Shown piece by piece: positions 17,182 through 61,668 of a stretch of DNA of 64,000 nucleotides; position 1 is the first letter of the stretch, and the number at the start of each line of letters is the position of its first letter. The DNA is from Apium graveolens. Its lineage: Eukaryota > Streptophyta > Magnoliopsida > Apiales > Apiaceae. The notes under the pieces are model-generated. The model saw nothing but the letters and a program-made list of their open reading frames with translations. It had not been told where the DNA came from and made no database searches. Location: NCBI RefSeq assembly GCF_009905375.1, contig NC_133650.1, positions 170,580,518-170,644,517 on the forward strand, given 5' to 3'. Both the position numbers and the translations under genes were made by a program.

Positions 17182-18235
17182 TGTGACAACCAGTAAATAT
17201 TTGAACTATTTTATAAGTGCGATGTAGATATTCATAAATATTATGTGATATAATGGTAATTATGTGGACTCGTTATATATTGTGTATAATTTTGTTAGAT
17301 GGCATTGCGAATGTTGTTGGAATATTTTTAAGCGTATAGCTTTCGTACGAAAGTAAGATTTTCGTTATGCGATTAAATAAGTAGTGCAATTTGATATTAT
17401 TCGAATAGTTGCGGCTACGCGATGAAGTAATAATTGGGATTCTCGCGATTTAGTGATATTTGAATAAGTTGCGATTAGGCAATAAATTATATTCTAATAT
17501 TGTGGAGTAGAGTCAATTTATTTGTAATTGCTTGTGTGATTTTTATTGTGTTAACTATATTTTACATGACTTATTTATTAGAGTGATAATATTAGAAAAT
17601 TCTTTTAATATAAAAATTTTGTTCGAAATTTTTGAAATTAATTTTATTAAACTTCTAAAATCTCATAGTATTTATGGTATTAATTTGGTGATTTATGGAT
17701 TTGTATTTTAATTATTAAAAATCAATCTTTTTAATTATACTTTTAATAGTTATTGAATTACAAGTGTGCCCTTGCATACAAATTCCACCCAAATAGAGAT
17801 CAAGGGTAAGACCGTCCTTTCACCCTCCACTAACTCCATTTGACCAAACAAATGACCAATAAAACCTTTCATGCAAGAGCTTGCTATTAGTGGATGAAGG
17901 ATAAAATACTAAACTCAAACTCCACTAACATTTGGTGAGACAAATACTAAGTAAAACACTCATCTCACATCATTTCTTTTCCACCAACACATCACTCCAC
18001 TCTCTCTTCTTCCTACCCCCTCTCGGCCGCACCTAAACCCTCCCCATCCCTCTCATTTTTCTTCCTCATTTCTTCATTTTCTTAACACCTTTGAACTTGT
18101 AAAGATCCCGGGATTGTTATTATTTTGGTTGGGTTTTTAATCGTATTATTATAATCTTTTAGACTTATAAGTTTGTAATATAATTATGGTTCGGATTTAT
18201 TTAGTGTGTGTGTGTGTTTGGTTTGGGGTGTGACA
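17182..18235 (+). repeat. 5' LTR of gypsy element B
   Basis: About 1,054 bp, starting TGTGACAACCAGTA and ending GGGGTGTGACA, with the primer-binding site four bases later. A CT-rich segment (17970-18075) resembles a 5' untranslated region. It is only about a quarter of the length of the C, D and E LTRs, and I find no histone-like frame in it. The ends (TGT-AC-ACC-GTA; GGGTGTGACA) are related to those of D. Confidence 0.85.
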
Positions 18236-18239
18236 TAGT

Positions 18240-18251
18240 TGGTATCAGAGC
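18240..18251 (+). other. Primer-binding site of element B
   Basis: TGGTATCAGAGC, complementary to initiator tRNA-Met, four bases after the LTR end. Confidence 0.9.
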
Positions 18252-18387
18252 CTAGGTTTAGAGTCCCTGGACAACCCAATTAGGACTATAGGGAGTATGA
18301 GTATATATTATAATATCGGGAATACTAATGCGCGATATTCGCGTAAACCATATCTAATCTTTGTATATATACATATATATTACGTTA

Positions 18388-18762
18388 CAACAACGTGCGC
18401 ACGCATCCTCTTCGATTCCGCAGAGTGACACAATTCCTCTCTCCGTCTAAGCTGACTTAAGGCTGCATCATGACACTCTTCAAGGGAAGTATGTCAGGCT
18501 GATGGAACGTCTTGAGGAGCTCTATGCAAGTAAGCAAGTGATGGATAACGGACCTAAGGCGAAAACCATTTCAAGGCTTGAGTCACTGATCCAAGTGGCC
18601 ACATCAAGATTGGAGGAAATGCCCGTGCATCGTGACCGGACCAGTCAGATTACTGTGCAGATGATAGTGGATGAGCTTGGGAGCGTGGTCAAGATGCTAC
18701 GTGCAGACACTACCCCCGACACCGCAAGGACCCGTGAGGAGGAGTCCGAGGAGGAGGCTTAG
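18388..18762 (+). pseudogene. Leader ORF of element B, homologous to that of D
   Basis: An open frame of about 125 codons with one stop at 18448 (TAA). It precedes gag and is not part of it. Reading from QQRAHASSSIPQSDTIPLSV, it aligns along its length with the leader ORF of D. The best-conserved part is LEEMPVHRDRTSQ (D: LEEMPAHRDRTSQ), followed by QMIVDELGSVVKML. The predicted product is mainly helical with an acidic tail and no known domain. The position equivalent to D's acceptor AG reads AA here. The first uninterrupted piece starts at ATG 18505 or the CTG just before it. Conservation between two distinct families argues for a real accessory protein. Confidence 0.6.
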
Positions 18763-20620: not shown

Positions 20621-21081
20621 TAATATTATTGTGGTTTAGGTATAATATTAAAGCCGAAAGTAAATATGATTCAATGATTGCACGTTTGTGTTAGTGAGAA
20701 TTTCTGCATTATAAAATTTTTATGTGTAGTATATGATTTTTTTTTCAAAGCAAAAGTTTATTTATTTCCTTTATTTTGATTTGTAAGGAATATTCTAAGC
20801 CTTGGAGAAATTTCTTTTGAAAGATATTTTGTTCATAAATTTTGAAAGTGATTTTATAAAATCTCTAAAAATCTAAATTATTTTATGGTAAAAATTTTAT
20901 AATTTTTGAACTTTTATTTTATTATATAAAAATAAATCTTCAAAAATTAGTTGCTTATTAATTATCAAATTACATGGTTACCCTTGCATGCAAATTCTCT
21001 TCTATTCAACTTAAAGGGATAAAAAGACAATTCCAACCCCCACTAACTCTTATTTTACTAGCCAAATTACTTCTTTGTCCT
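20621..21081 (+). repeat. 5' LTR of element D, first segment (22 terminal bases missing)
   Basis: It is nearly identical to 57657-58117 in D's 3' LTR. The first 22 bases of the LTR (present at 57635-57656) are absent, and B's protease sequence is joined directly at TAATATTA. The segment stops at TTGTCCT, where element C begins, and the LTR resumes at 48640. Confidence 0.88.
21077..21081. other. Target-site duplication of element C, left copy
   Basis: GTCCT, repeated at 48640-48644 right after C's 3' LTR. Joining the flanks with one copy regenerates the D LTR sequence seen uninterrupted at 58112-58122. Confidence 0.93.
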
Positions 21082-24000
21082 TGTAATAACCCCAAAATTT
21101 TGAACTCTTTGTAACCCTTATGAATAGTGTTTTTGCTGATATTGCTGAATAAGAAAACTGTTCATGCCACACTATGTAGGGGTTCTGTTATGGATATTCT
21201 GAGATTTTATTGGTACTCTATAGGGTATATTAGTGTATGTAAAGATCGTCAGAATCCAATTCCGAACACTTTGATTTTTCCCAGAAATCCACTAAATACG
21301 GAAAGAATTGAGTATAAGGTAACAGGATAAAAATGATTTAAATTAAAGGATTATAAGAGAGGATCATAAAAGGAATATAATATATTGAGAAAGGTTAAGG
21401 GAACCTAAGTAATAAGATCCCGGGTATGATCCCTCAAACGATAAACGAAAACGAAAGTTAAGCGAACCGTATAACAGATCAGCGGTCATTAGGCAAACAA
21501 TTAGGAAGTTAATCAAGGAGGTTAGGGATGATGAGGTCATCCAACCAATAAGGAGAGGACAAGTAAGAGATGATGACACAATAAGGTGATGTAAGCATGA
21601 CATAGGGATGGAGGAGATGTGGTTGGTTTATAACCACATAAAGATAAGGTTAATAAGGTAATTAACCAAAACAAAAACAAAACTACACCCACCAAGCCAA
21701 AACAAATCATTTCATCAAAACAAAAATTGTATTTCTCTTCACCAAGAACATTTGCTCTCGACTTTTTCCATTTTCAAAGAGAAGATTTTTCAAAATCCAA
21801 GTTCCAAGCTTCCTAAATTGGTAAGATAATTCTCTAGTACTCCTTATGCATAGTTATGGCTATCTTATGAGTTTAAGCCTCCAATTCATTCTTAATCTTC
21901 TCCAAGAAATCAATGAAGAAGATAATGAATAGTGATTTCAAGGTTTTTAACTTGATTTTTCTTGTTTTTCCTTTAAGATCCAAGCATCCCTAAGACATCT
22001 CAAGGCTTCTTAAGGCTTCCTAGCTACTCACATCACTTCAAGGAAGGTATATCATCTCCAAACCCTAGATTTACTTTGTATATTAGGATGATTTTGGTTT
22101 TTATGGTAATAGAGTAGCTTAATGCTTGTTGGTTTAGCGTTTGGGTTGGAATGGTGTTGAATTGAATGTTGAAATCTTATGGTTTGGTTAAAGGACTTAA
22201 GTATAGTTTAAATTCAAGTTTAAGAATAAGTATAATTGTTAATATTGAGTTGATTGGGGCTGTTATGATGTATTGTGGATGGATGTTGGTTGTATAGATG
22301 GATTGGGATTGATTGGTGGTTGTATTGGAATGGTATAAAATTGGGAAATCGCGTAAACATAGTCGTCGTAATGTCCGATTTACTTTAGACTGCTTTTGTT
22401 CATAATATTAGGACCCGAGAACTCCGTGCTAGGTTTTGACCATTTCCATGTTTAGATAGTTCATGTTACGAGCTTCGTTTTGATATGTGGTTCGTTTGAT
22501 TCCGATGTACGGTTTAGGAGAAACGGCCGTTTTAAGTAACGATGTTTCGCGAACGAAACATTACCCCTCGCCTTACTTTGAAACATAGGTTAAAGACCTA
22601 AAAAGGGTTAATTAGTGTATGAAACAATTATGTTAAGTGTGTTAGGCAGTTAGTAAGACACTCGCGAAAGAATCGCCTTAAAACTCGTAATGGTTAATTT
22701 ATTAAAAATGGTGGAGCCGAGGGTACTCGAGTGACTTAAGAGAATCAGTAAGCGCAAAGCCAGCGTTAGAGTCTAATTTGGTTAAAGTATAGATTTACAA
22801 GTGACTTTGGTTTAATTCCAACTCACATGTTGTTTATAGGTTACCAGACTCGTCCCGAGCCATTTGTAACCCCCAGTCGCTCAGGCAAGTTTTCTACCCG
22901 TATAACTGTTGTTGTGATGTATATGTGTATATGCATGATCTTGCGATAAATGCATATTTGTTATTAGCAAATTCTTGCGATATATTGTAGCATGTGATAT
23001 GGTATATATGCATGCCTGTTTCATATTCTTGATTTATATATCTGTTGGTTCAATGCTTATAGTTGCATAATACCTATGCTAGAGATAAGCGATATTTGAG
23101 TATACCCTTAGTATAGGGGATAAAAAGGTGAACTTTTTCTAAAACCGGGAGGCGAGGCTCCCGAGTATAATATATATATATATATATTTATATATATCTG
23201 GATATAGTTTTCAAAACTATTGATCGAATAAGGTTTATTCGATAACTTTATATTAATTAATGAATATTATTTGAATATTCATTCGAGGACTTATGACTCT
23301 GTTTATTATATTTAATGATTATTAATTGGATATTCATTGGAGGATGTATGGCTCCGTTTATTTTATTTAATGAATATTATTTATAATATTCATTCGAGGT
23401 ATTATGATTCCGCTTATTATTTAATAATATTCTTTATTTTATTAAAGAATAATGTTTCGATAATCAAACTTATTTTCGATTATTCAAATAAGGATAGTAC
23501 TTTCATATAAGTATATCTTTGGTTATTTAATATCCATTTCAAGTATAAGTTTAAAACTTATACTTCAATTATTTTTATAAGGATTATCTTTATGAGAATA
23601 TTATTTAAATAATAATATTCAGATATTTTCTAATATATGGGGACTGATTTATTTTAATAAATCAGCAGTACTCCAAACATTCTTAAAATGTTTTCGAGTC
23701 TTCAAAATGATTTTTTTAGTTAGAGTGGACCCAAAAACTCATTTTTATATTTAAGATCTTCCTTTCAAAGGGGATTTAAATACTCGCTCAAAACCTGGGG
23801 GATCCAGCTCTGTGGAGCATTTTACATTCGCAACGTGGTTGCTGTTTTAAAGAAAACAAATGAATTGATTACTTACCCAACGTTCGGGAAGTAAGCCCAT
23901 CTAATTGAGTCGGCATAAGCGACAGGCCGGGGTATGGTCTATCAAAGTGTAAGTGGCTGGGTGGCAGTCCATCAATGCGTAAGAGGCCGGGTGGCGGTCC

Positions 24001-24972
24001 AGCACAAGGTCCTTATGTGGCCAGGGTGATGACCGGTGGGGGATTCATCCATCTACTAGTAGAAAAGGTTACTTATTGGTATCTTTGCCTGATCAGCAAG
24101 ATATCGGGTTTATGCCAAAATTCTTTTCCTTTCCAAAATTCGTTGGATGTTACAAACTCTGTTCATACTTTACATAACAGAGGTTCCAGGAAATGTTTAA
24201 GAGATATATATGTGGATATATATCGGGACTAAATAAAGTATCTCGTAACTTTATTTCATTCAATAATATTTCAAAGATTAAATCTATTCAAGTCTTAACT
24301 TGTGGTCTCATCTATGGGATGACTTTTTTTAAACCTATAATACTTTGAATAGTGGTAGTTCAAGTAGCCTTATAAATGATATAAGTATAGTGAAGTATTT
24401 GGTAACTTCATCTTCCTTTAAACTTATATCCAGTAAGTAATTATCTTACACTTGATAAAGGTTTTCAGTAAGTTATCTATTAGATACTTGCATTATTGAT
24501 TACACTATATATTATCTTGCGAGCTGTAATGCTCACTCTTGCTTTATTTTTTCATCACACAACAATAGTTAGGAAAGATGGCCAGGCTCAAGCAGACCCA
24601 GCGCAAGAGCGTGGGAAGCGCCCCGCGCCTTCCCGTTGAGATCGTAGCTGCTATAGCTGCAGAGGTAGATCTATCTGTAGATCAGACATTCTACTTTTGA
24701 GAATCAATTATGTACAATTATAACTTGTGGCAGATAATGGCAATTAACTGTAAACTTATCAAGTAATCATTTTGGGTTGTAATAACTTTTAATTGTGGAT
24801 TCAAGGACTTGTACTTATTTCAATTTCATCTCTGAGACAATGACGTGTGGTGGTGTGTGTTAGTGTGGGGTCACAACATGAGGTTGTTTATTATTAATTA
24901 AGTTAAGTGATAATTGTGGGAAGAAAGACCGTGACGACCCGGATGCCTGACCCCGGATCTGGGGGTGTTACA
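21082..24972 (+). repeat. 5' LTR of element C (about 3.9 kb)
   Basis: It starts TGTAATAACCCCAAAATTTTG and ends GGGGGTGTTACA. Parts in order: a CT/TTC-rich segment near 21720-21790, then TTG|GTAAGA (donor-like, about 21820). Next come a long region with several conserved blocks, a hairpin at 23146-23163, AT dinucleotide runs near 23170-23200 and 55-bp tandem repeats (23257-23430). Last are 30-bp GC-rich repeats (23924-24013) and the histone-H3-like exon (24569-24664). Such long LTRs are uncommon in chromoviruses. Confidence 0.92.
24569..24664 (+). CDS. Histone H3-tail-like exon in the 5' LTR of C
   Basis: ATG 24578 opens MARLKQTQRKSVGSAPRLP, followed by VEIVAAIAAE. Aligned without gaps from Met, it shares A1, R2, K4, Q5, T6, R8, K9, S10 and G12 with histone H3, and APR follows with one residue missing. 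The segment is GC-rich inside an AT-rich LTR. It is bounded by a pyrimidine-rich acceptor-like site (CACACAACAATAG, ending 24568) with TGCTCAC upstream as a possible branch site. A donor-like GAG|GTAGAT follows at 24664/24665. If unspliced, the frame ends at 24700 (40 residues). The ATG context (AAAGATGG) is strong. Function is inferred: it may imitate an H3K4/K9 substrate or ligand. Splicing is predicted, not shown. Confidence 0.6.
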
Positions 24973-24976
24973 GAAA

Positions 24977-24989
24977 TGGTATCAGAGCC
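24977..24989 (+). other. Primer-binding site of element C
   Basis: TGGTATCAGAGCC, four bases after the LTR end. Confidence 0.92.
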
Positions 24990-25160
24990 AAGCGTTATAA
25001 ACCTCAGAGATGATGCGACGATATAATAACAAACTCACAAAGATAATAAGAACTCTTGCCAAGTTCATGGTCGGACTACTTAAAGTAGCGCTGACAGTTA
25101 AAACCCTTACGGGAACCCTAATAAGTAGCATGATAGTAACTTAGCTCGTTTAATGTGTAG

Positions 25161-25628
25161 GCGCATGAGATAGAGGACCCTGAGATGTTCGAGCGTGAGC
25201 ATGATGAGGCACTGCTAGATGTCGAGGATCAGGAGGAGCCTGAGATGGAGGAGGATGAGGAGGACCCCTCAGAGGAGTTAGAGACAGAGGTCATTACTAT
25301 TTTAGATGAGGAGGACCCGGATGAGGTCCCAGTAGCTGAGGAGCGTGTCGGACCTATGGTAGTGTACACTGGTACCCCTTTACCCACACTCCCAGTGGTC
25401 AGAGCTCCTACCCCTCCACTACCATCCTGGAGCACTTATGATGACAGCTCTAAGACTGATACTCCCGAGCCTAGACAGACCGAGGAGGCACCCCCAGCGG
25501 CTCCGGATTCACCACCTCTCGACCCTGCCCATAGGCAGTCTTTGTAAGCCCACGGCTATGTTCAAGATGTACTGAGGACCCGATTGGCTGTTGCTGAGGC
25601 CCGGCTAGATGAGGTCAGGAGGGAGTTG
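25161..25628 (+). pseudogene. Leader ORF of element C, first part (acidic)
   Basis: The frame is open from GCG 25161, right after TAG/AG 25158-25160, and the first ATG is at 25185. It encodes a strongly acidic stretch (MFEREHDEALLDVEDQEEPE) and a Pro-rich stretch, with one TAA at 25545 (Gln likely), then VQDVLRTRLAVAEARLDEVR. It is broken by element E at 25628 and continues in the same frame at 39399. Together the two parts give about 230 codons before gag and separate from it. If the LTR exon at 24569-24664 (phase 0) is spliced to 25161, the reading frame is kept. No known domain is recognised. Confidence 0.62.
25624..25628. other. Target-site duplication of element E, left copy
   Basis: AGTTG, repeated at 39394-39398 after E's 3' LTR. 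Removing E and one copy restores the leader frame of C. Confidence 0.93.
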
Positions 25629-28600
25629 TGTAATAACCCCAATTTTTGGAAATTTTTGAAACCCTTATGAATAGTGTTTTTGCTGAATGAGAAAACTTTT
25701 CATGCCACACTATGTAGGGGTTCTGTTATGGATATTTTGAGATTTTATTAGTACTCTATATGGTATATAAGTTTATGTAAAGATCGTCAGAATCCAATTC
25801 CGAACACTTTGATTTTCCCGGAAATCCACTAGATACGGAAAGAATTGAGTATAAGGTAACATGATTAAAAGGATTTAAATTCAAGGATTATAAGAGAGGA
25901 TCATAAAAGGAATATAATGTATGGAGAAAGGTTAAGGGAACCCAAGTAATAAGATTCCGGGTATGATCCCTCAAACGATAAACGAGAACGAAAGTTAAGC
26001 GAACCGTATAACAGATCAGCGGTCATTAGGCAAACAATTAGGAAGTTAATCAAAGAGATTAGAGGGGATGATGTCATCCAACCAATAGAAAGAAGACAAA
26101 GGAGGGGTGATGACATCACAAAGTGATGCAAGCATGACATAAGAGGGAAGGAAATGTGGTGGAATATTAACCACACAAAATCAAGGGTAAATGGGTAATT
26201 GACCTAAAACAAAACAAAAACAACCAACCAAAAATCAAATCAAAGCAAAAACACAAAAATCTCTCTTTCTTCTTCTTCATGCTCTCGGCTTTTTGAAGAA
26301 AAACAAGGAGGAGTTTTTCAAAAACTCAAGCTACACACCTTCAAAAATTATAAGGTTTGTTTCTTTAGCTTCCATAATTCATAACTTAGTTATGCTATAA
26401 GTTTGGATCCAAGAATCCAAGATTTACCTAGTTAATCAATTCCTAAAAGTTTAGGGTGAATAGTAACTTTCAAGAACAAATTTTTGATTCTTGATTTTAT
26501 TTGTAAGGACAAGGTAGCTTAAGCATAGATCAAGGCTTCCATGGGCATTCCAAGGATCTTTCATTGATTAAAAGCTTCAAGAAGGTATAAAACTTCAAAC
26601 CCTAGCTTTACTTTTGAGTATTAGGAATGGTTTTGATTGTTATAGTTCATGAGGGGCATGATCCTTGTATACTTAGAGTGTGGTTGGATTTGTAATGAGT
26701 TTGAAGTTGTAAATCTTGATTATTGGTTAATGAACTTAAGTATAGCTTTTAGTTCATGTTTGAGGGTAGTATAAAGTTGATAATATTGGGTTTTGGGGCT
26801 GTTAGGATGTGATATGGATGGACTTTGATGGTATGAATGGTATAAATTTGGGAAATCGCGTAAACATAGCCGTCGTAATGTCCGATTTACTTTAGACTGC
26901 TTTTGTTCATAACATTAGGACCCGAGAACTCCCTGCTAGGTTTTGACCATTGCCATGATTAGATAGTTCATGTTATGAGCTTCGTTTTGATATGTAGTTC
27001 GTTTGATTCTGATGTACGGTTTAGAAGAAACGGCCGTTTTAAGTAACGGCGTTTTGCGAACAAAACATTATCCCTCGCCTTACTTTGAAACATTGGTTAA
27101 GGACCCTAAATGACTAATTGGAGTATGAATCATTTATGTAAAGTGTATTAGGCAAATGGTAAGGCTCTCGCAAAAGAATTGCTTTAAAACTCGTAATGGG
27201 TAATTTATTAAAAATGGTGGAGCCGAGGGTACTCGAGCGACTTAAGTAAATCGTTAAGCGCAAAACGAGCGTTAGAGTCTGAGTTGGTTAGAGTATAGAT
27301 TTACAAGTGACTTTGGTTTAATTCCAACTTACTTGTTGCTTATAGGTTACCAGACTCGTCCCGAGCCATTCGTAACCCCCAGTCGCTCAGGCAAGTTTTC
27401 TACCCTTTATACTGTTGTTGTGATGTATATTTGTATATGCATTATCTTGCGATAGATGCATGTTGGTTAATTAGCAAATGTTGCGATATATTGAAACATG
27501 CTGATATGGTATATATATGCATGCCTGTTCGTATTCTTTCCATATATATCTGTTGGTTCAGTTGATAATACCTATGCTAGAGGATAGCGGTAATTTGCAT
27601 ATACCCTTAGTATAGGGACCCAAAGGTGAAAATGTTTTCTAAAACCGGGAGTCGAGGATCCCGAGTAGACTTTATATATTTATATATATATATGTATATG
27701 GTTATAGTTTTCACAACTATTAATCGAATAAAGTTTATTCGATAACTTTATATTATTTAATGAATATTACTTGAATATTCATCCGAGGACTTATGACTCC
27801 TTTTATTTTATTAATTGAAGATTATTTCGAATATTCATTCGAGGGCTTATGACTCAGTTATATTATTTAATGAATATTATTTGAATATTCATTTGAGGAT
27901 GTATGACTCCTTTGTTTTATTTTATGAATATTATTTATAATATTCATTTGAGGACTTATGACTCCGTTTATTATTTAATAATATTCTTTATTTTATTAAA
28001 GAATAATATTTCGATAATCAAACTTATTTTTTTGATTATTCAAATAAGATATTACTTTCGTATAAGTATATCTTTGATTATTTGCTATTCATTCAAGTAT
28101 AAGTTTTCCAACTTCTACCTCAATTATTGTTATGGGAATATTATTTAAATAATAATATTCAGATATTTCTTTCATATCGAGACTGATTTATTCTAATAAA
28201 TCAGTATTACTCCAAACATTCTTAAAAATGTTTTCGAGTCTTCAAAATGAATTTAAAAGGTAGAGCGGATCCCAAAACTTGTTTTCTAATTCAAGATCTT
28301 CCATTTTAAGGGGACTTGAATACTCGATCAAAAATCTAAGGGATCCGGCTCTGTGGTGTATTTTATATTCGCAACAAGGTTGCTGTTTTGATGAATGAAT
28401 TAATTACTTGCCCAATGTTCGGGAAGTAAGCCCATCTAATTGAGTCGGCATAAGCGACAGGCCGGGGTACGGTCTATCAAAGTATAAGTGGCTGGGTGGC
28501 AGTCCATCAACGCGTAAGAGGCCGGGTGGCGGTCCAGCACAAGGTCCTTATGTGGCCAGGGTGATGACCGGTGGGGGATTCATCCATCTACTAGTAGAAA

Positions 28601-29719
28601 AGGTTACTTATTGGTATCTTTGCCTGATCAGCAAGATATCGGGTTTATGCCAAAATTCTTTTCTTTCCAAAATTCATTGGATATTGCAACTCTATTCATA
28701 CTTTACATGACAGAGGTTTTCAGGAAATGTATGAGAGAGATATATATATGGATATATATATATCGGGACTTAATGAAGTATCTCGTAACTTCATTTCATT
28801 TAATAATATTTCAAAAATTGAATCTATTCAAGTCTTATCTTGTATTCTCATCTATGTGATGAACTTTTGAAACTAATTATAACTTGAACGGTGGTAGTTC
28901 AAGTAGTATTCAGAAAGATATAAGTATATTGTAGTATCTTGTAACTTCATCTTTTAAACTTATATCTAGTAAATGATTATCTTGTGCGTGTCAAAGATTT
29001 TCGGAAAAACGTTGAGACAAGGTTAGATATATGAGATCACCTTGCAACGATATTTTTATACAGTTATACACTAGAACTCTGTGTGTATTATGCATGGAAG
29101 AGGACTTCCAATATTTTGAAAAGTATATATGTATATATATATATACTGAATATTTTGTGACTTCATCGCATTAAGATATCAACTTGGTTCATTTCTTTTG
29201 ACCAAGACTTTCATGAGTACTATGAGAAGGCTCATATATTGTTAATCATTATACATATTATTTTGGTGGGCTTGCTGCTCACCCTTGCTTTCTTCTTTCA
29301 TCACACAACATCAGATAGACAAGATGAACAGGACCAAGATCCCAATTCGCAAGCGGATAGGAAACGTTCCGCAGCTTTCGGGAAGCGTTGAGGCCGCTGT
29401 AGCTGAGGTAGGAATTACCAATAGGCTAGGCTTTCAACTTTTGATGTACCAGATTATGTATATTTATGAATTGTAATAATGGCAAAGAAATGTAAATTTA
29501 TTCAGAAACCTTTTTAAGGTGTATTGACATATAATTGTGGAATAAAACGACTTGTGATTATTTTTGGATATTCATCTCTGAGACTATAACTTGTGTTGTG
29601 TGTGTTTATTGTGGGGTCACAGTTCAGAGTAGTTGATTGTGTATTAAGATTGGGTGTTATTAAGGGAAATGGAACTCGTGACAACCCGGATCCCCGACCC
29701 CGGATTTGGGGGTGTTACA
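25629..29719 (+). repeat. 5' LTR of element E (about 4.1 kb)
   Basis: It starts TGTAATAACCCCAATTTTTGG and ends GGGGGTGTTACA. It is collinear with C's LTR but clearly diverged. It carries one more 55-bp-type repeat unit than C (from 27757), the 30-bp GC-rich block (28450-28560) almost unchanged, and its own histone-like exon at 29315-29407. Confidence 0.92.
29315..29407 (+). CDS. Histone H3-tail-like exon in the 5' LTR of E (divergent)
   Basis: ATG 29324 opens MNRTKIPIRKRIGNVPQLSG, followed by SVEAAVAE. The H3 register is partly kept: R2, T3, K4, R8, K9 and G12. The same flanks as in C are present: TGCTCACCCTTGCTTTC upstream, acceptor-like CATCAG ending 29314, nine bases to ATG, and donor-like GAG|GTAGG at 29407/29408. 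Without splicing the frame runs to 29476. E's 3' LTR has the same exon at 38989-39081 with a few changes. Coding is inferred from conserved architecture. Confidence 0.5.
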
Positions 29720-29723
29720 GAAA

Positions 29724-29735
29724 TGGTATCAGAGC
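29724..29735 (+). other. Primer-binding site of element E
   Basis: TGGTATCAGAGC, four bases after the LTR end, as in C. Confidence 0.9.
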
Positions 29736-29906
29736 TAAGCGTTATAAACCTCAGAGATGATGTGACGTTAAGATAATAAGTTCACTAAGATAATAAGAAC
29801 TCTTGCCAAGTTCATATTCCGGCTACCTAACATAGTACCGACAGTTAAAACCCTTATGGGAACCCTTATAAATATCGTGATGGAAGCGTAGTTCGTTATC
29901 GTAGAT

Positions 29907-30113
29907 GGTAGCGGGACTCCGAACCCTGAGGTTGAGGAGCAACAGCGCGATGATGTTTTATTACTAATTGGAGATCGAATTGTGGATCCGATAGAGTGTC
30001 CTAATGCAGGACCGGATGATGTTGATATTGAGGATGTAGCAATTGAGGATGTTGTCCTAGAAGGGATAGTTGCTGAGGAGGATCCCATGGAGGATCCTGA
30101 CAAGAATGAATAA
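29907..30113 (+). pseudogene. Acidic leader ORF remnant of element E
   Basis: Sixty-eight codons rich in Asp and Glu (for example NPEVEEQQRDDV and DDVDIEDVAIEDVV), ending at TAA 30111. The start aligns with the acidic leader of C (DPEMFEREHDEA). An acceptor-like GTAG ends at 29904, but two extra bases put the frame out of phase with E's LTR exon, consistent with decay. The C-terminal half known from C is missing; a pol fragment follows instead. Confidence 0.5.
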
Positions 30114-30185
30114 AGGACCACTAATGAATTAATGACCATGGTTAGGTCGCCTACCAGAAGTAGGATTGGTCGATCACTACCGGAG

Positions 30186-30975
30186 GTTCGTTCAAGTTTG
30201 TAAAGATGGTAGCCCCTTTAACGCGGCTTACTCGTAAGACTGAGAAGTTTGAATGGACAGAGAAATGCGAGAACAACTTTTAAGAACTGAAGCAAAGATT
30301 GGTGACGGCCCCTATGATGGCGTTGCCTAATAGAAAAGGAGATTTTATGATGTGTAGTGACGCTTCGCATAAAGAATTAGGGTGCTTCTTATACAGCACA
30401 ACAAGGTAATCGCGTACGCGTCAAGACCATTAAGGGAATATAAAATTCGATATCCCCACCCATGAACTTGGACTCATGGCAATAGTTTTGCCCTAAAGAT
30501 TGGAGGCACTACCTGTATGGATAGAAGTGCGAGATTTACACAAACCATAGGAGCTCTAGTACATTTTTACGTGGAAAGAGCTCAACATACGCCAGAGGAG
30601 GCAGTTAGAGCTAATCAAGAATTATGATTGGGAGATTCTTTATCATTCGGGGAAGCCAATGTGGTGGCTGATGCCCTTAGTAAAAAGGAGAGACTCAAGA
30701 TGAAAATGTCTTTGGGAGAGTTTATAAGAGATTTTGGAGATAAAAGTGAAGGTAACCGGAGTCGGTACCGAAAAGCTGTTTGAGATTGCAATACAGCCCG
30801 AATTATTGAAAAAAGAACATAGTGTGCCAGAAAAAGTGATGAATGAAGGCAGAAGACCAACAAATAGATAAGAGATTAATACCGAGAAAGATGATAAGGG
30901 AATAATGAGGCATTCCTACAGAATTTGGGTTCCAAATGTTCAAGAACTTAAAGATGAAATCTTAGATGAAAGCTA
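30186..30975 (+). pseudogene. Displaced RT/RNase H/integrase fragment in element E
   Basis: It matches C at about 42670-43460: [20 protein letters not shown], an RNase H start DFMMCSDASHKELG, ELNIRQRRQLELIKNYDWEI, then the integrase N-terminal region [20 protein letters not shown]. It has several frameshifts and stops. It lies before gag, which is the wrong place, and it is less decayed than the pol sequence downstream in the same element. This points to template switching or recombination with another copy. Confidence 0.75.
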
Positions 30976-30984
30976 GTTGAGGAA

Positions 30985-35258: not shown

Positions 35259-35263
35259 CTTTT

Positions 35264-35276
35264 AAGGAGGGGAGAC
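35264..35276 (+). other. Polypurine tract of element E
   Basis: AAGGAGGGGAGAC immediately before the TGTAATAACC of the 3' LTR, the same as in C. Confidence 0.85.
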
Positions 35277-38200: not shown

Positions 38201-39393
38201 CGGGTGGCGGTCCAGCACAAGGTCCTTATGTGGCCAGGGTGATGACCGGTGGGGGATTCATCCATCTACTAGTAGAAAATGTTACTTATTGGTATCTTTG
38301 CCTGATCAGCAAGATATCGGGTTTATGCCAAAATTCTTTTCTTTCCAAAATTCATTGGATATTGCAACTCTGTTCATACTTTACATGACAGAGGTTTTCA
38401 GGAAATGTATGAGAGATATATATATGGATATATATATATATCGGGACTTAATGAAGTATCTCGTAACTTCATTTCATTCAATAATATTTCAAAAATTGAA
38501 TCTATTCAAGTCTTAATTTGTATTCTCATTTATGTGATGAACTTTTGAAACTAATTATAACTTGAACGGTGGTAGTTCAAGTAGTATTCAGAAAGATATA
38601 AGTATATTGGAGTATCTTGTAACTTCATCTTTTAAACTTATATCTAGTAAATGATTATCTTGTGTGTGTCAAAAATTTTCGGAAAAACGTTGAGACAAGG
38701 TTAGATATATGAGATCACCTTGCAACGATATTTTTATACAGTTATACACTGGAACTCTGTGTGTATTATGCATGGAAGAGGATTTCCAATATTTTGAAAA
38801 GTATATATGTATATATATACTGAATATTTTGCGACTTCATCGCATTAAGATATCAACTTGGTTCATTTCTTTTGACCAAGACTTTCATGAGTACTATGAG
38901 AAGGCTCATATATTGTTAATCATTATACATATTATTTTGGTGGGCTTGCTGCTCACCCTTGCTTTCTTCTTTCATCACACAACATCAGATAGACAAGATG
39001 AACAGGACCAAGCTTCCAATTCGCAAGCGGATAGGAAACGGTCCGCAGCTTTTGGGAAGCGTTGAGGCCGCTGTAGCTGAGGTAGGAATTACTAATAGGC
39101 TAGGCTTTCAACTTTTGATGTACCAGATTATGTATATTTATGAATTGTAATAATGGCAAAGAAATGTAAATTTATTCAGAAACCTTTTTAAGGTGTATTG
39201 ACATATAATTGTGGAATAAAACGACTTGTGATTATTTTTGGATATTCATCTCTGAGACTATAACTTGTGGTGTGTGTGTTTATTGTGGGGTCACAGTTCA
39301 GAGTAGTTGATTGTGTATTAAGATTGGGTGTTATTAAGGGAAATGGAACTCGTGACAACCCGGATCCCCGACCCCGGATTTGGGGGTGTTACA
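35277..39393 (+). repeat. 3' LTR of element E
   Basis: About 4,117 bp, closely matching 25629-29719 with scattered substitutions and a short insertion near 36485-36520. It includes the repeat block (from about 37437), the GC-rich block (about 38115-38240) and the histone-like exon. It is followed by AGTTG. Confidence 0.92.
38989..39081 (+). CDS. Histone H3-tail-like exon in the 3' LTR of E
   Basis: ATG 38998 opens MNRTKLPIRKRIGNGPQLLG. It keeps the same length (84 coding bases), the CATCAG acceptor-like site, the 9-nt spacing and the GAG|GTAGG donor-like site as the 5' copy. As part of a 3' LTR it would not normally be translated from this element's transcript. Confidence 0.45.
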
Positions 39394-43000: not shown

Positions 43001-44710
43001 AAGTGCGAGATCTTCACAGACCATAAGAGCCTCAAGTACATATTTACGCAGAAAGAGCTCAACATGCGCCAGAGGAGATGGTTAGAACTAATGAAGGACT
43101 ATGATTGTGAGATTCTATATCATCCGGGGAAAGCCAATGTGGTGGCTGATGCCCTTAGTAGAAAGGAAAGACTCAGAATGATAACGACTTCGGAAGAATT
43201 GATAAGGGATTTTGAGAGAATGGAAATAGAAGTAAAGGTAACCGGAACCGGAACTGAAAAGCTTTTTGAGATCTCAATACAGCCAGAATTATTGGAAAAG
43301 ATCAGATTGTGCCAAGAGAAAATAATGAATGAAGGCAGAGAGTCAATGACTGGAGAGGAGATCCATACTGAGAAAGATGATAATGGGATAATGAGGTACT
43401 CCTACCGGATTTGGGTTCCGAACGTTCAAGAGCTTAAAGATGAGATTTTGGATGAAAGCCATAGTTCAAGGTATTCCATTCACCCGGGAAGCACCAAGAT
43501 GTATAGGGATTTGAAGGAGTATTACTGGTGGCCCAACATGAAGAGGGATGTAGCAGAATGGGTGAGCAAATGTTTGACTTGCCAAAGAGTAAAGGCAGAG
43601 CACCAGAGACCCAGTGGACTTTTACGACCCCTGGAGATTCCCGAATGGAAATGGGAACAGATAGCGATGGATTTTGTTGTAGGCTTGCCAAGGACGAAAG
43701 CCAATCATGATGCCATATGGGTAATTATAGACCGACTGACAAAGTCAGCTCATTTCATTCCTATCAATGAGAGATACACAGTCGATAGACTGGTGGACAT
43801 TTACCTTAAGGAGATAGTGACGCGACATGGAGTCCCAGCGTCCATTGTCTCAGACCGAGACCCCAGATTCAACTCCAGATTTTGGAGGAGCTTTCAAGAA
43901 TGTGCAGGGACCAAGTTAAATATAAAAACCGCGTAGCATCCCCAGACGGATAGGCAGAATGAAAGGACCATCCAGACACTAGAGGATATGTTGAGAGTCT
44001 GTGCAATAGACTTTAAAGGAAGTTGGGATGATCACTTGCCGTTGATCGAGTTTTCTTATAATAATAGCTTTCATGCTAGCATCGGAATGCCGCCTTATAA
44101 GGCCCTGTACGGAAGAAGGTGTCGATCTCCCTTATACTGGGATGAAGTAGGGGAGCGGAAGATGCTCGGACCCGAAGTGGTCCAAAGGACCAAAGACATA
44201 GTGGATCTTATCAGAGGGCGGCTTGTAGCAGCCCAAGACAGATAGAAGAAATATGCAGACCTAGCCCGAAAGGACAAGGAGTATGAAGTAGGGGACTTAG
44301 TACTACTAAAAGTATCCCCTTGGAAGGGGTTAATGAGATTCGGAAAGAAAGGAAAACTAAGCCCAAGATACATTGGACCTTTTGAGATACTAAGACGGAT
44401 TGGGAAGTTGGCTTACGAGCTAGCCTTACCCCCGAACCTACAACAAGTTCATAATGTGTTCCATGTGTCAATGCTAAGGAAGTATCATCGGGATGCCAGA
44501 CACATAGTGGAGTACGAGCATGTGGATATGCAACCAGATCTGACTTACGTGGAGAAACCAGTAAAGATTATGGATAAGAAGGAGCAGGTGCTTCGGAACA
44601 AAGTGATCAAGCTAGTCAGAGTGCTATGGCAGAATCATAATGTGGAAGAATCAACTTGGGAACTAGAGAGCGCAATGCTAGAAAAGTACCCCCAATTGTT
44701 TTCTATTTGA
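40002..44710 (+). pseudogene. Gag-pol of element C, least damaged polyprotein in the window
   Basis: ATG 40002 opens MPPRKIETRANPGSEDQ and an acidic N-terminus. Gag motifs are [29 protein letters not shown] and [10 protein letters not shown]. Three zinc modules follow ([26 protein letters not shown]; the third degenerate). The protease is [14 protein letters not shown] has the FIDDILIYS catalytic motif (about 42390), then RNase H. Integrase has an HHCC site (43460-43590), [16 protein letters not shown] and NERTIQ as the acidic triad region, and IGPFEIL. The C-terminal EESTWELESAMLEKYPQLF is chromodomain-like. Damage: TAG 40245, two frame changes between about 40270 and 40470, one extra C near 42934, TAG 43934 and TAG 44243. 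The stretch 40516-42939 is open for 807 codons. It acts in the cytoplasmic particle and nucleus as a Tekay/Del-like polyprotein. Confidence 0.92.
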
Positions 44711-44743: not shown

Positions 44744-46828
44744 TGTAATAACCCCAAAATTTTGAACTCTTTGTAACCCTTATGAATAGTGTTTTTGCTG
44801 ATATTGCTGAATAAGAAAACTATTCTTGCCACACTATGTAGGGGTTCTGTTATGGATATTCTGAGATTTTATTGGTACTCTATAGGGTATATAAGTGTAT
44901 GTAAAGATCGTCAAAATCCAATTCCGAACACTTTGATTTTTCCCGGAAATCCACTAGATACGGAAAGAATTGAGTATAAGGTAACAGGATAAAAAGGATT
45001 TAAATTAAAGGATTATAAGAGAGGATCATAAAAGGAATATAATATATTGAGAAAGGTTAAGGGAACCTAAGTAATAAGATCCCGGGTATGATCCCTCAAA
45101 CGATAAACGAAAACGAAAGTCAAGCGAACCGTATAACAGATCAGCGGTCATTAGGCAAACAATTAGGAAGTTATCAAGGAGGTTAGGGATGGTGAGGTCA
45201 TCCAACCAATAAGGAGAGGACAAGTAAGAGATGATGACACAATAAGGTGATGTAAGCATGACATAGGGAGGGAGGAGATGTGGTTGGTTTATAACCACAC
45301 AAAGACAAGGTTAATAAGGTAATTAACCAAAACAAAAACAAAACTACATCCACCAAGCCAAAACAAATCATTTCATCAAAACAAAAATTGTATTTCTCTT
45401 CACCAAGAACATTTTCTCTCGGCTTTTTCCATTTTCAAAGAGAAGATTTTTCAAAATCCAAGTTCCAAGCTTCCTAAATTGGTAAGATAATTCTCTAGCA
45501 CTCCATATGCATAGTTATGGCTATCTTATGAGTTTAAGCCTCCAATTCATTCTTAATCTTCTCCAAGAAATCAATGAAGAAGACAATGAATAGTGATTTC
45601 AAGGTTTTTAACTTAATTTTTCTTATTTTTCCTTTAAAATCCAAGCATCCCTAAGACATCTCAAGGCTTCTTAAGGCTTCCTAGCTACTCACATCACTTC
45701 AAGGAAGGTATATCATCTCCAAACCCTAGCTTTACTTTGTATATTAGGATGATTTTGGTTGTTATGGTAATAGAGTAGCTTAATGCTTGTTGGTTTAGAT
45801 TTTGGGTTGGAATGGTGGTGAATTGAATGTTGAAATCTTATGGTTTGGTTAAAGGACTTAAGTATAGTTTAAATTCAAGTTTAAGAATAAGTATAATTGT
45901 TAATATTGAGTTGATTAGGGCTGTTATGATGTATTGTGTATGGATGTTGGTTGTATGGATGGATTGGGATTGATTGGTGGTTGTATTGGAATGGTATAAA
46001 ATTGGGAAATCGCGTAAATATAGCCGTCGTAATGTCCGATTTACTTTAGACTGCTTTTGTTCATAACATTAGGACCCGAGAACTCCATGCTAGGTTTTGA
46101 CCATTGCCATTTTTAGATATTTCATGTTACGAGCTTCATTTTGATATGTGGTTCGTTTGATTCCGATGTACGATTTAGGAGAAACAGCCGTTTTAAGTAA
46201 TGACGTTTCACGAACGAAACATTACCCCTCGCCTTACTTTGAAACATAGGTTAAAGACCTAAAAAGGGTTAATTAGTGTATGAAACAATTATGTTAAGTG
46301 TGTTACGCATTTAGTAAGACACTCGCGAAAGAATCGCCTTAAAACTCGTAATGGTTAATTTATTAAAAATAGTGGAGCCGAGGGTACTCGAGTGACTTAA
46401 GAGAATCAGTAAGCGCAAAGCGAGCGTTAGAGTCTAATTTGGTTAAAGTATATATTTACAAGTGACTTTGGTTTAATTCCAACTCACATGTTGTTTATAG
46501 GTTACCAGACTCGTCCCGAGCCATTTGTAACCCCCAGTCGCTCAGGCAAGTTTTCTACCCGTATAACTGTTGTTGTGATGTATATGTGTATATGCATGAT
46601 CTTGCGATAAATGCATATTTGTTATTAGCAAATTCTTGCGATATATTGTAGCAAGTGATATGGTATATATGCATGCCTATTTCATATTCTTGATTTATAT
46701 ATCTGTTGGTTCAATGCTTATAGTTGCATAATACCTATGCTAAAGATAAGCGGTATTTGAGTATACCCTTAGTATAGGGGATAAAAAGGTGAACTTTTTC
46801 TAAAACCGGGAGGCGAGGCTCCCGAGTA

Positions 46829-46864
<36 letters not shown>

Positions 46865-48639
46865 GGATATAGTTTTCAAAACTATTGATCGAATAAGGTT
46901 TATTCGATAACTTTATATTAATTAATGAATATTATTTTAATATTCATTCGAGGACTTATGACTCTGTTTATTATATTTAATGATTATTAATTGGATATTC
47001 ATTGGAGGATGTATGACTCCGTTTATTTTATTTAATGAATATTATTTATAATATTCATTCGAGGTATTATGACTCCGCTTATTATTTAATAATATTCTTT
47101 ATTTTATTAAAGAATAATGTTTCGATAATCAAACTTATTTTCGATTATTCAAATAAGGATAGTACTTTCATATAAGTATATCTTTGGTTATTTAAAATCC
47201 ATTTCAAGTATAAGTTTAAAACTTCTACTTCGATTATTTTTATAAGGATTATCTTTATGAGAATATTATTTAAATAATAATATTCAGATATTTTCTAATA
47301 TATCGGGACTGATTTATTTTAATAAATCAGCAGTACTCCAAACATTCTTAAAATGTTTTCGAGTCTTCAAAATGATTTTTTTTTAGTTAGAGTGGACCCC
47401 AAAACTCATTTTTATATTTAAGATCTTCCTTTCAAAGGGGATTTAAATACTCGCTCAAAACCTGGGGGATCCAGCTCTGTGGAGCATTTTACATTCGCAA
47501 CATGGTTGCTGTTTTAAAGAAAACAAATGAATTGATTACTTACCCAACGTTCGGGAAGTAAGCCCATCTAATTGAGTCGGCATAAGCGATAGGCCGGGGT
47601 ACGGTCTATCAAAGTGTAAGTGGCTGGGTGACAGTCCATCAACACGTAAGAGGCCGGGTGGCGGTCCAGCACAAGGTCCTTATGTGGCCAGGGTGATGAC
47701 CGGTGGGGGATTCATCCATTTACTAGTAGAAAAGGTTACTTATTGGTATCTTTGCCTGATCAGCAAGATATCGGGTTTATGCCAAAATTCTTTTCCTTTC
47801 AAAAATTCAATGGATGTTACAAACTCTGTTCATACTTTACATAACAGAGGTTCCAGGAAATGTTTAAAAGATATATATGTTGATATATATCGGGACTAAA
47901 TAAAGTATCTCGTAACTTTATTTCATTCAATAATATTTCAAAGATTGAATCTATTCAAGTCTTAACTTGTGGTCTCATCTATGGGATAACTTTTTTTAAA
48001 CCTATAATACTTTGAATAGTGGTAGTTCAAGTAGCCTTATAAATGATATAAGTATAGTGAAGTATTTGGTAACTTCATCTTCCTTTAAGCTTATATCCAG
48101 TAAGTAATTATCTTACACTTGAAAAAGGTTTTCAGTAAGTTATCTATTAGATACTTGCATTATTGATTACACTATATATTATCTTGTGAGCTGTAATGCT
48201 CACTCTTGCTTTATTTCTTCATCACACAACAACAGTTAGGAAAGATGGCCTGGCTCAAGCAGACCCAGCGCAAGAGCGTGGGAAGCGCCCCGCGCCTTCC
48301 CGTTGAGATCGTAGCTGCTATAGCTGCAGAGGTAGATCTATCTGTAGATCAGACATTCTACTTTTGAGAATCAATTATGTATAATTATAACTTGTGGCAG
48401 ATAATGGCAATTAACTGTAAACTTATCAAGTAATCATTTTGGATTGTAATAACTTTTAATTGTGGATTTAAGGACTTGTACTTATTTCAATTTCATCTCT
48501 GAGACTATGACGTGTGGTGGTGTGTGTTAGTGTGGGGTCACAGCATGAGGTTGTTTATTATTAATTAAGTTAAGTGATAATTATGGGAAGAAAGACCGTG
48601 ACGACCCGGATCCCTGACCCCGGATCTGGGGGAGTTACA
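44744..48639 (+). repeat. 3' LTR of element C
   Basis: About 3,896 bp, closely matching 21082-24972, and ending GGAGTTACA before GTCCT. It contains the same repeat blocks and the histone-like exon (48236-48331). In this copy H3-position 2 reads Trp instead of Arg (MAWLKQTQRKS). Confidence 0.92.
48236..48331 (+). CDS. Histone H3-tail-like exon in the 3' LTR of C
   Basis: ATG 48245 lies nine bases after a good acceptor-like CACACAACAACAG. The frame of 29 codons ends at GAG|GTAGAT, as in the 5' LTR. One change, AGG to TGG, gives MAWLKQTQRKSVGSAPRLP. The acceptor is CAG here and TAG in the 5' copy. Confidence 0.5.
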
Positions 48640-48644
48640 GTCCT
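48640..48644. other. Target-site duplication of element C, right copy
   Basis: GTCCT matches 21077-21081. The D LTR continues from here with TGCATGCAAAATGACC. Confidence 0.93.
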
Positions 48645-51600: not shown

Positions 51601-52192
51601 GTGGATCTGGACTGAGACGCGAGTCCTTTCCACACTTATATTGTAGGCTTAAAAGTTGCCTAGGGATCCCATTAACATTTTAGAACCCAGCGAGGTTCGG
51701 GATTACCCCGCGGCTGATCACCGGCTGTAATCCGTAGCGTCATAAAATGATTTTGATTAAGATATGATGTTGAAAATATTTTGATACAAGCAAATAATGC
51801 CATCACCCAAAGTTTTATCTCTTGTTATTATTGGTTATGTCTTCACATTGTCATTCTTTAATACATATCTCGATTTATGTTTATATCATATTGTTTAGCA
51901 CTTGTTGAGCATTTGGCTCACTCCTTGCTTTACCCTGATATTATAGCTAGCAGCTATGGTTAAATTCAAGCAGACAGCACGTAAGACCTGTGACGCTGAT
52001 GCGTATGTCGAGCTCAGGTAGAATAAGAGATAGTTTTGTGTGAGGACTCGATATTAAAATCAATTGTAATTGATGGTAGTGTTGGGCTGTTCTAAACCCT
52101 AAACTGTAAGATCTTTGATTTGGTTATGTTTACTTTCTTTTAAATATTGTATTAGTTATATTTATTTTGTTGGTTAAGTTGGGGGTGTGACA
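48645..52192 (+). repeat. 5' LTR of element D, second segment
   Basis: It continues the LTR begun at 20621; together the two segments make about 4.0 kb. It matches 58123-61668 closely. It includes a CT-rich segment (48766-48870), possibly the start of the transcript leader, and the histone-like exon (51947-52017). It ends GGGGGTGTGACA. Confidence 0.9.
51947..52017 (+). CDS. Histone H3-tail-like exon in the 5' LTR of D (KQTARK)
   Basis: ATG 51956 opens MVKFKQTARKTCDADAYVEL. Residues 4-9 (KQTARK) are identical to histone H3 residues 4-9 and sit in the same register from Met. The acceptor-like GATATTATAG ends at 51946, with GGCTCACTCCTTGCTTT upstream, and nine bases separate AG from ATG. The donor-like CTCAG|GTAG is at 52017/52018. 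Unspliced, the frame stops at 52019-52021 (21 codons). The 3' LTR copy has one extra base, making the exon phase 0. Coding and splicing are inferred. Confidence 0.6.
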
Positions 52193-52332: not shown

Positions 52333-52689
52333 CAAAGGGCGCATTCCTCGACACCCTCTGGGTCGGACGACACTATTGCTTTCTCCGTGTATGCTGAGTT
52401 GAGGCGCGAGTTTGACATGCTTCAGGGCAAGTACGATCGACTGATAGATCGACTGAAGAATGTGTATCCGGATAGCTGAAACTATGAAGGGAAGCCTAAG
52501 GAGCAGATGACTGCGAGACTTGAGACCTTGGTTCAGTACGTCAATACTAAGCTTGAGGAGATGCCAGCGCATCGGGACCGCACCAGCCAGTATGTCATCC
52601 AGATGGTGGCAGATGAGCTCCAGAGCATTGTGAAGACACTTCGAGAAGAGAAGACTACCAAGCCCCATTTTGATGGAGTGGAGCCTTAG
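52333..52689 (+). pseudogene. Leader ORF of element D, homologous to that of B
   Basis: The frame is open immediately after the acceptor-like TTATTGGTTTGTCAG (AG at 52331-52332), starting QRAHSSTPSGSDDTIAFSVY. It has one TGA at 52477 and ends at TAG 52687. The conserved part is LEEMPAHRDRTSQ followed by QMVADELQSIVKTL; the region before it (LQGKYDRLIDRL) also aligns with B. It is mainly helical with no known domain. The exon starts in phase 0, matching the ancestral phase of D's LTR exon, so an H3-like N-terminus may be joined to it. Confidence 0.65.
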
Positions 52690-60600: not shown

Positions 60601-61668
60601 CCTAAAAGCCAGATATTCATCAAAGTTATCCATAATTGATTGATACCCCTCTTTATTACCCTAAAGTTTAACAATCCTGATGTACCTTGAGCTAAAGATC
60701 ATTTCTTCATACCTTAACACCCTTAGTATTCATGAAGCTTATCTTCTTGATGTTCTAGCACTTGTACCTTGTCGAAAAACCATTGCTTAAAGCCTAGTTT
60801 GGCATTACCCCTTCATAATATCCAATAGCCTTGCTAAATTTCCTTGTCCAAGTTTTTGTATATGGAAACCTTTCAGTTACCCTAATAGAGTAAAGTCTAG
60901 TGGATCATGACCCTGAGATTTAATATCGTATTTCCAGTGTTTCAAGTTGATCTATAATCCTTTGATAAAAATGATTACTGTTTAAAGAGATTTTGTTATA
61001 AATCGGCATCAGTTTTTAAAATGATTAAAATGTGGATTTTCAGTCCCAAAGGGGGATAAATGTTTTCTTTGAATAGTGGATCTGGACTGAGACGCGAGTC
61101 CTTTCCACACTTATATTGTAGGCTTAAAAGTTGCCTAGGGATCCCATTAACGTTTTAAAACCCAACGAGGTTCGGGATTACTCCACGGCTGATCACCGGC
61201 TGTAATCCGTATCATCATAAAATGATTTTGATTAAGATATGATTTTGAAAATATTTTGATACAAGCAAATGATGCCATTACCCAAAGTTTTATCTCTTGT
61301 TATTATTGGTTATGTCTTCACATTGTCATTCTTTAATATATATCTCGATTTATGTTTATATCATATTGTTTAGCACTTATTGAGCATTTGGCTCACTCCC
61401 TGCTTTACCCTGATATTACAGCTAGCAGCTATGGTTAGATTCAAGCAGAGAGCACGTAAGACCTGTGACGTTGATGCGTATATTCGAGCTTAGGTAGAAT
61501 AAGAGATAGTTTTGTATGAGGACTTGATATTAAAATCTGTTGTAATAGATGGTAGTGTTGGGCTGTTCCAAACCCTAAACTGTAAGATCTTGGATTTTGA
61601 TATGTTTAATTTCTTTTAAATATTGTATTAGTTATATTTATTTTGTTGGTTAAGTTGGGGGTGTGACA
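57635..61668 (+). repeat. 3' LTR of element D (about 4.0 kb, uninterrupted)
   Basis: It starts TGTTACGACCGG and ends GGGGGTGTGACA, joining B's pol at 61669. It provides the intact reference for the 5' LTR that C interrupted. It includes the CT-rich segment (58240-58350), segments with repeated GGCCCAAG words (about 59280-59640), and the histone-like exon near its end. Confidence 0.92.
61422..61493 (+). CDS. Histone H3-tail-like exon in the 3' LTR of D
   Basis: ATG 61431, nine bases after the acceptor-like GATATTACAG, opens MVRFKQRARKTCDVDAYIRA. Sixty-three coding bases lead to TAG|GTAG; the last codon was probably CAG, since the 5' copy has CTCAG. One extra base relative to the 5' LTR places the exon in phase 0, which fits the leader ORF acceptor at 52333. 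Confidence 0.5.
   Translation, partial: LAAMVRFKQRARKTCDVDAYIRA

Follow-up and report, generated by a model that had tools for sequence, protein, structure and literature searches.

Long terminal repeats (LTRs) of retrotransposons in celery (Apium graveolens) encode a short peptide that matches the tail of histone H3 in register from the initiator Met, as the preliminary description of this locus had noted in one LTR, and the tail is maintained across element families. On balance, the H3-like frame appears to be the opening coding exon of an accessory gene that precedes gag. The exon was probably captured from an H3 gene, and the product would act as a mimic of the H3 tail. The window, the 64-kb stretch of celery DNA analyzed here, is a nest of LTR retrotransposons (elements C, B, and D and a fourth element, E; table 1). 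Because of their long LTRs, extra 5′ open reading frame (ORF), and chromodomain type, these are probably long-LTR retrotransposons of the chromovirus type belonging to the Tekay/Del lineage.

Table 1. Coordinates of the LTRs, exons, and integrase tail in the window
Feature	Position	Strand	Remarks
Exon 2, fourth accessory ORF (element E)	18391..18759	+	One internal stop
5′ LTR, element C	21082..24972	+	TSD GTCCT at 21077-21081 and 48640-48644
Exon 1, element C	24569..24664	+	Acceptor-like AG 24567-24568, 9-nt leader, ATG 24578, MARLKQTQRKSVGSAPRLPVEIVAAIAAE
Predicted phase-0 intron, element C	24665..25160	+	GTAGAT...GTGTAG; spans LTR end and primer binding site; same junction in P0002 and P0007
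Exon 2, element C accessory ORF	25161..25547	+	AHEIEDPEMFERE..., stop ends this copy; element B inserted further on at 25629
5′ LTR, element B, nested in C	25629..29719	+	TSD AGTTG
Exon 1, element B	29324..29407	+	MNRTKIPIRKRIGNVPQLSGSVEAAVAE, then donor GTAGGA
3′ LTR, element B	35277-39393		
Exon 1 copy, 3′ LTR of B	38998..39081	+	
Chromodomain-like integrase tail, element C	44564..44698	+	Resembles type II, cage incomplete
3′ LTR, element C	44744..48639	+	
Exon 1 copy, 3′ LTR of C	48245..48331	+	MAWLKQTQRKS..., R2 changed
LTR copies, element D	about 48640-52192 and 58113-61668		
Exon 1, element D	51956..52017	+	MVKFKQTARKTCDADAYV...; phase 0 lost in this copy
Exon 2, element D accessory ORF	52333..52689	+	QRAHSSTPSGSDDTIAF..., one internal stop in this copy
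Exon 1 copy, other D LTR	61431..61493	+	MVRFKQRARKT..., decayed, stop codon at end

An H3-Like Peptide in the LTRs of Three Families

The ATG at position 24578 in the 5′ LTR of element C opens the frame MARLKQTQRKSVGSAPRLPVEIVAAIAAE. Counted without the Met, residues A1, R2, K4, Q5, T6, R8, K9, S10, and G12 are identical to H3 and an APR follows one residue early, which bears out the alignment first reported for this LTR. The base composition is likewise that of a GC-rich stretch in an AT-rich LTR (63% GC in the exon vs. 34% in the LTR). The peptide had been quoted with the correct sequence but with an extent of 19 residues, which is too short: the frame runs to residue 29 and then meets a splice donor (24664/GTAGAT). 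In the other LTR of element C, the copy at 48245 has already changed to MAWLKQTQRKS, and exon 1 of element D carries KQTARK, identical to H3 residues 4–9.

The H3 N-terminus was compared by BLOSUM62 with 127,918 six-frame positions of the window. The six best matches are the six LTR copies of the three families (scores of 47, 39, 33, 30, 28, and 27), all at the corresponding position of the LTRs of C, B, and D, and the seventh-ranked match (26) is located elsewhere. In 200 order-1 resampled windows the top match scored 35 and the top sixth-ranked match 22, and among 500 order-shuffled H3 tails nine reached 33 and none scored above 37. A sequence search of solved structures with exon 1 of element C identified histone H3, weakly (best E = 0.12), with the best 60 of the 77 matches at E ≤ 10 all being H3; the same search with exon 1 of element D returned no match.

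Exon Structure and the Accessory Open Reading Frame

Splice signals and gene models point to the peptide as the first exon of an accessory protein and not as the stand-alone LTR product that had been supposed. Upstream of exon 1, TATA-like and GCTCAC..TTGCTTT motifs were recognized by eye, with an acceptor-like AG just before the ATG; other ATGs within 120 bases upstream are located at 24529 (C), 29213 and 29222 (B), and 51837 and 51877 (D). The exon ends at the donors GTAGAT (C), GTAGGA (B), and GTAGAA (D), in phase 0 in C and B, and beyond the LTR exon 2 starts behind an acceptor, in frame with exon 1, at 25161 in C and at 52333 in D. All eight fetched copies of C, one of them the window's own, carry the phase-0 donor. 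Thirty copies of D were fetched (again including the window's own) and 23 were anchored; 22 of these 23 read MV[R/K]FK..., with a phase-0 donor in 20 of the 22, and the exon is visible in three of the seven unanchored copies.

An assignment of exon 1 to the N-terminus of gag was considered and dropped. The gag frame starts later with its own ATG (MPPRK..., MPPKK...), and exons 1 and 2 therefore represent a separate accessory ORF. This additional sense-strand ORF, situated after the 5′ LTR and before gag, is kept in many copies (exon 2 in 150 scored places out of 6833 candidates, many with stops, and also in Heracleum gene models); within the window, no whole unbroken accessory ORF was seen. 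Exon 2 of element E has no H3-like exon upstream among the best H3 matches of the window. The sequence before the primer binding site of element E (17400-18760) is unlike the other LTR ends.

Celery gene models place the junction where the splice signals predict it, in P0002 (NCBI LOC141695437) and P0007 for C and in AgCh_012955 (P0016) and AgCh_013390 (P0020) for D. Residues entered just before the ATG agree with the acceptor (..LGKM in P0011; ..AAM in P0016, P0020, and P0024). The splicing of exon 1 to exon 2 is a predicted junction supported by gene models, some possibly ab initio. Six further celery models (P0008, P0009, P0010, P0011, P0013, and P0015) use the donor of the C exon but continue into unrelated sequence, and P0024 does so with the D exon; in these models, the LTR looks as if it were providing host transcripts with new exons or with N-termini that resemble H3. 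In P0012 and P0014, which also contain the C exon, the donor is read through.

No histone fold was detected after the tail: P0002, P0005, P0016, and exon 2 of C gave no Pfam match at E ≤ 0.01. In an AlphaFold model of the Heracleum protein P0026 (mean pLDDT of 61, a weak model), the first 34 residues are of low confidence and are followed by helices at residues 40–67, 78–99, and 106–128, and a fold search with this model matched no solved fold at E ≤ 0.001.

Recurrence in Celery and Heracleum

A scan of the 3.33 Gb of celery genome for M[x]RTKQT[x]RK gave 257 places (100 of the 257 were listed), 75 of which have the canonical MART form; not all of these 75 are whole histone genes. Twenty hand-picked places were fetched, and 19 of them have an LTR context as judged by eye, with L074 representing an unrelated frame. 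The sequence MVRTKQTARKS, which is H3 residues 2–10 behind an A1 to V change, is present in 14 of the 19 LTR-context places. Most of these exons continue with a variable segment and CAG/GTAG, whereas L075 and L076 end with the tail itself. Where exon 2 of the families found by pattern is readable (QHAHSSSSTPPGDTIAFSVYADLR... in L073), it is homologous to exon 2 of D, with 49% identity.

A second search of the celery genome used exon 2 only, which avoids selection for H3 similarity. Of 6833 candidates, 150 were scored, and about every seventh row, from row 5 to row 138 by hand count, was sampled (n = 20). An H3-like exon is present at the expected distance in 18 of the 20 places; L101 keeps only the end of the exon and L104 has none. 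Exact MVRTKQTARK was found in five copies and the D type, MVRFKQTARK, in one; the start or the frame is lost in three (L094, L102, and L106), two carry a stop (L096 and L108), and the remaining copies differ by one to three residue changes.

Among public proteins, the exon-2 profile gave 25 matches, 20 of which were read. Six of the 20 have an H3-like N-terminus (P0035 is joined elsewhere), and the other 14 have their start within exon 2, within the intron, or in sequence of no relation to the element. Three models from Heracleum sosnowskyi, which belongs to a different tribe of the Apiaceae than celery, were found with the exon-2-only profile and begin with MVRTKQTARKSSNG (MVRTKQTARKSSNGV..AQ) followed by exon 2 at the predicted junction (P0026, P0027, and P0030); a fourth match from the same species starts without exon 1. 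Neither viral contigs, searched with protein P0026 and by pattern, nor genome contigs, searched by pattern, gave a match outside plants. Overall, M[A/V]R-x-K-Q-T-x-R-K is found in register in C, D, and the MVRTKQTARK families and partly in B, and the N-terminus of the product would be free.

Conservation of the Peptide between Families

The H3-like peptide is preserved between families while synonymous sites change. A comparison of the G copy L089 with 13 E-type copies, which are all the in-frame ones of the exon-2 sample with decayed copies included, gave pS = 0.70 and pN = 0.05 for codons 2–12, a pN/pS of 0.08 that draws on a single G copy in 13 comparisons that are not independent. For codons 13–23 of the same comparison, pS is 0.69, pN is 0.26, and pN/pS is 0.37. 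Among the 13 E copies themselves, codons 2–12 have a pN/pS of 1.06, as expected of decay after insertion. The ratio of 0.08 between families vs. 1.06 within one family therefore indicates constraint between families combined with free decay once a copy has inserted. The preliminary description had made conservation of the frame beyond neutral expectation its test, and the result is positive in this main comparison.

The undecayed pair L099 and L089, which was picked, shows six synonymous and no amino-acid changes in codons 2–12 and 5.5 and 6.5, respectively, in codons 13–23 (Fisher p = 0.054). A tighter pN/pS of 0.18 for codons 2–11 takes in families that were chosen by the H3 pattern. Across families C, B, D, and E, codons 2–11 have a pN/pS of 0.60, a weak signal, and exon 2 has a pN/pS of 0.38 between G and D, where synonymous change is high.

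Individual H3 positions are kept to different degrees. R2, R8, and K9 are present in every family representative compared, with single copies that break them, and K4 in all representatives except the C subfamily of P0002, which carries K4 to Q and S10 to R. Drift from H3 has changed T3 to L and A7 to Q in C and T3 to F in D, and B retains only R2, T3, K4, R8, K9, and G12.

Proposed Role of the Accessory Protein

Since exon 1 is located toward the downstream end of the LTR, an RNA driven by the LTR would carry the exon near its 5′ end, where it would be spliced to exon 2 of the internal region. The initiator Met is removed from proteins before Val or Ala. The product would then start V/A-R-T-K-Q-T-A-R-K-S, with K4 and K9 at an H3-like distance from a free N-terminus, and a flexible tail ahead of a helical, putatively self-associating domain would display H3-like tails away from nucleosomes. 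A nuclear product would occupy readers or writers of the H3 tail, and the most likely outcome would be that silencing of the element is dampened or that the element becomes linked to chromatin proteins.

Competition for H3-tail readers or writers fits best and is the most likely form of the mimicry, its chief rivals being targeting and nuclear import. The more specific proposal that an H3 tail maintained by selection, in which K4 and K9 keep their register, serves as a decoy substrate or ligand that weakens silencing of the encoding elements in a large group of plant retrotransposons is made tentatively, as possible rather than probable. At least one reader of the H3 tail tolerates the A1V change well: the peptide VRTKQTARK(me3)ST competes for the ADD domain of human ATRX with an IC50 of 4.3 uM vs. 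7.6 uM for the natural peptide (PMC7181051).

A modified H3-like tail might instead be a targeting ligand that steers the pre-integration complex to silent chromatin through chromatin readers that recognize it or through the integrase chromodomain of the element itself. Chromodomain-like tails end the integrases of both C and D (that of D recognized by eye only), K9 is kept in every family representative compared, P0002 and P0026 included, and in sunflower the insertion preference of Tekay groups that possess a 5′ accessory ORF (aORF) differs from that of groups lacking it (PMC11728184). However, the accessory protein is not part of Gag-Pol and its entry into particles is purely putative, and the chromodomain of C appears to be of type II with an incomplete cage, so that targeting of this kind seems unlikely. 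The chromodomain of C matches Pfam Chromo at E = 7.5e-4 with 19.8 bits, below the cut-off of 25.1, and aligns with the chromodomain of Clr4 at E = 0.018; within the methyl-lysine cage the W is kept, H stands for the Clr4 Y at the last position, and the first aromatic position is outside the alignment. Type II chromodomains of plant Gypsy elements are described as missing the first cage residue and, in most cases, the third, and as having an unknown partner (PMC6317226, PMC3350952). Binding of the H3-like tail by the element's own chromodomain, as had been suggested, looks unlikely judging from the sequence, because the cage seems incomplete; the Pfam score below cut-off and the H for Y replacement make it doubtful.

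The second rival would assign the basic H3 tail to nuclear import, with any mimicry of modification being incidental. In its favor, the residues that are retained even by the diverged families B and C, namely R2, K4, R8, and K9, are basic, and a nuclear location is predicted for the 5′ aORF products of other Tekay elements (PMC11728184). An import signal has no need of the exact register from the Met or of Q5-T6-A7-S10, yet these are kept in the MVRTKQTARKS families (Q5-T6-A7 in D), which makes localization as the sole function distinctly unlikely.

Origin of the Exon and Remaining Alternatives

Thirty celery loci of the MART form were fetched (L039-L068). Three of them (L041, L042, and L061) have an intron that ends directly before the ATG, 24 codons, and a phase-0 /GT, and several copies of an H3-exon cluster (L047 and others) share this host exon plan of AG/ATG, 24 codons, and a phase-0 donor. 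The LTR exon follows the same plan and phase (AG/short leader-ATG, 21–29 codons, /GT, phase 0). Because host exon and LTR exon have the acceptor, ATG, and phase-0 donor in common, the simplest account is that the exon was probably captured whole, with its splice sites, from an intron-containing host H3 gene. An origin from H3.3 had been considered and was reduced to an origin from an intron-containing H3 gene, the H3.3 type of L041 and L042 not being established.

A recently captured H3 exon could also be a passive relic that hitch-hikes in an abundant LTR. The identity of exon plan and phase with the host gene would suit such a relic, as would the young LTR pairs of the window (K 0.018-0.033) and the drift of families B and C from H3. 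It is nevertheless very unlikely that the exon is nothing but a relic, given that several families and Heracleum keep codons 1–11 while the rest of the exon has diverged and that pN/pS between families is 0.08 in codons 2–12.

Constraint on the RNA, with the stretch kept for splicing, packaging, or strand transfer and not for the peptide, is suggested by the position of the exon in the likely R-U5 of the LTR, adjoining a splice donor. Families that encode the same peptide vary, however, in their valine, arginine, threonine, glutamine, alanine, and serine codons, and the pS of 0.70 between G and E copies in codons 2–12 leaves constraint of this sort extremely improbable. Chance resemblance of a short ORF, which nothing favors except the shortness of the peptide, is ruled out by the resampled windows, the shuffled tails, and the recurrence at the same LTR position in three families and beyond.

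H3-derived exons form a dense cluster in celery at C7:180.08-180.37 Mb and on contigs C684, C685, C1422, C2988, C3662, C3902, C4164, and C4428. The cluster copies L047-L058 and L065-L068 mostly read MARTKQTARKS[I/S]GGKVPGKQLTHK or close to it, followed by a phase-0 donor, and several carry stops or are shortened. The cluster is apparently a tandemly amplified H3-like gene family.

Relation to Known Systems

The 5′ aORFs of the Tekay lineage (sunflower Tekay 13-2; maize Tekay, Sorghum Sb7, and rice Retrosat-2/RIRE3) are of unknown function (PMC11728184). They resemble the celery ORF in their location upstream of gag and in being mostly disordered with helices, and are predicted to be nuclear (PMC11728184). 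The sunflower ORF differs in that it is described as having no similarity to known domains (PMC11728184), whereas the celery N-terminus is a separate LTR exon with an H3 tail, predicted to be joined by splicing.

Among the matches listed in a search of the open literature, none describes an LTR-encoded H3-tail exon. The earlier statement that no described precedent is known in plant LTRs may be wrong, since Steinbauerova et al. reportedly noted in 2011 a similarity to H3 in 5′ extra ORFs of grass (Poaceae) chromoviruses and explained it as gene transduction. Those ORFs would share with the celery ORF the H3 similarity in a chromovirus 5′ extra ORF; the Apiaceae exon differs in being encoded by the LTR, in its host exon plan and phase, in its register from a free N-terminus, and in its constraint between families. 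Compared with the intron-containing H3 genes of celery (L041, L042, and L061), the LTR exon has the same acceptor, ATG, about 24 codons, phase-0 donor, and MxRTKQTARKS, but A1 is changed to V in most families seen, the sequence diverges after residue 12, and a helical domain follows in which no histone fold was detected.

Histone mimics are found in viruses and hosts, as in the tail of influenza NS1 and the self-methylation site of G9a. The celery exon likewise places a short H3-tail-like sequence on a non-histone protein; unlike these mimics it is situated at a true N-terminus, is exact over residues 2–10 in several families, and is encoded by a retrotransposon. The function of plant chromovirus extra ORFs upstream of gag is unknown, as is the partner of type II chromodomains, and a selected H3 tail on an accessory protein opens a direct in vitro route to the function of the aORF and perhaps to that partner. 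If the mimic works, it would correspond to viral histone mimicry but be carried by a transposon, in a repeat for which a single genome holds thousands of candidate places, and it would be relevant to the persistence of long-LTR elements in the face of silencing. The exon further suggests a way for a host exon to be taken into an LTR together with its splice sites.

Organization of the Nested Elements

The LTR pairs of C, B, and D have diverged by K = 0.023, 0.018, and 0.033, respectively, and the LTR of D has no blastn match to the LTRs of B or C. Element C has the domain order gag, protease, RT, RNase H, and integrase by Pfam, with the integrase core below the Pfam cut-off. Positions 20621-21083 and 57657-58119 of the window are matching internal ends of D-type elements, and the position of element C resembles the boundary between internal region and LTR of a D-type array with shared LTRs. 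In element B (29720-35264), the 5′ ORF is short and broken with RT-region sequence close behind, as judged by eye, and the element looks like an internally deleted derivative.
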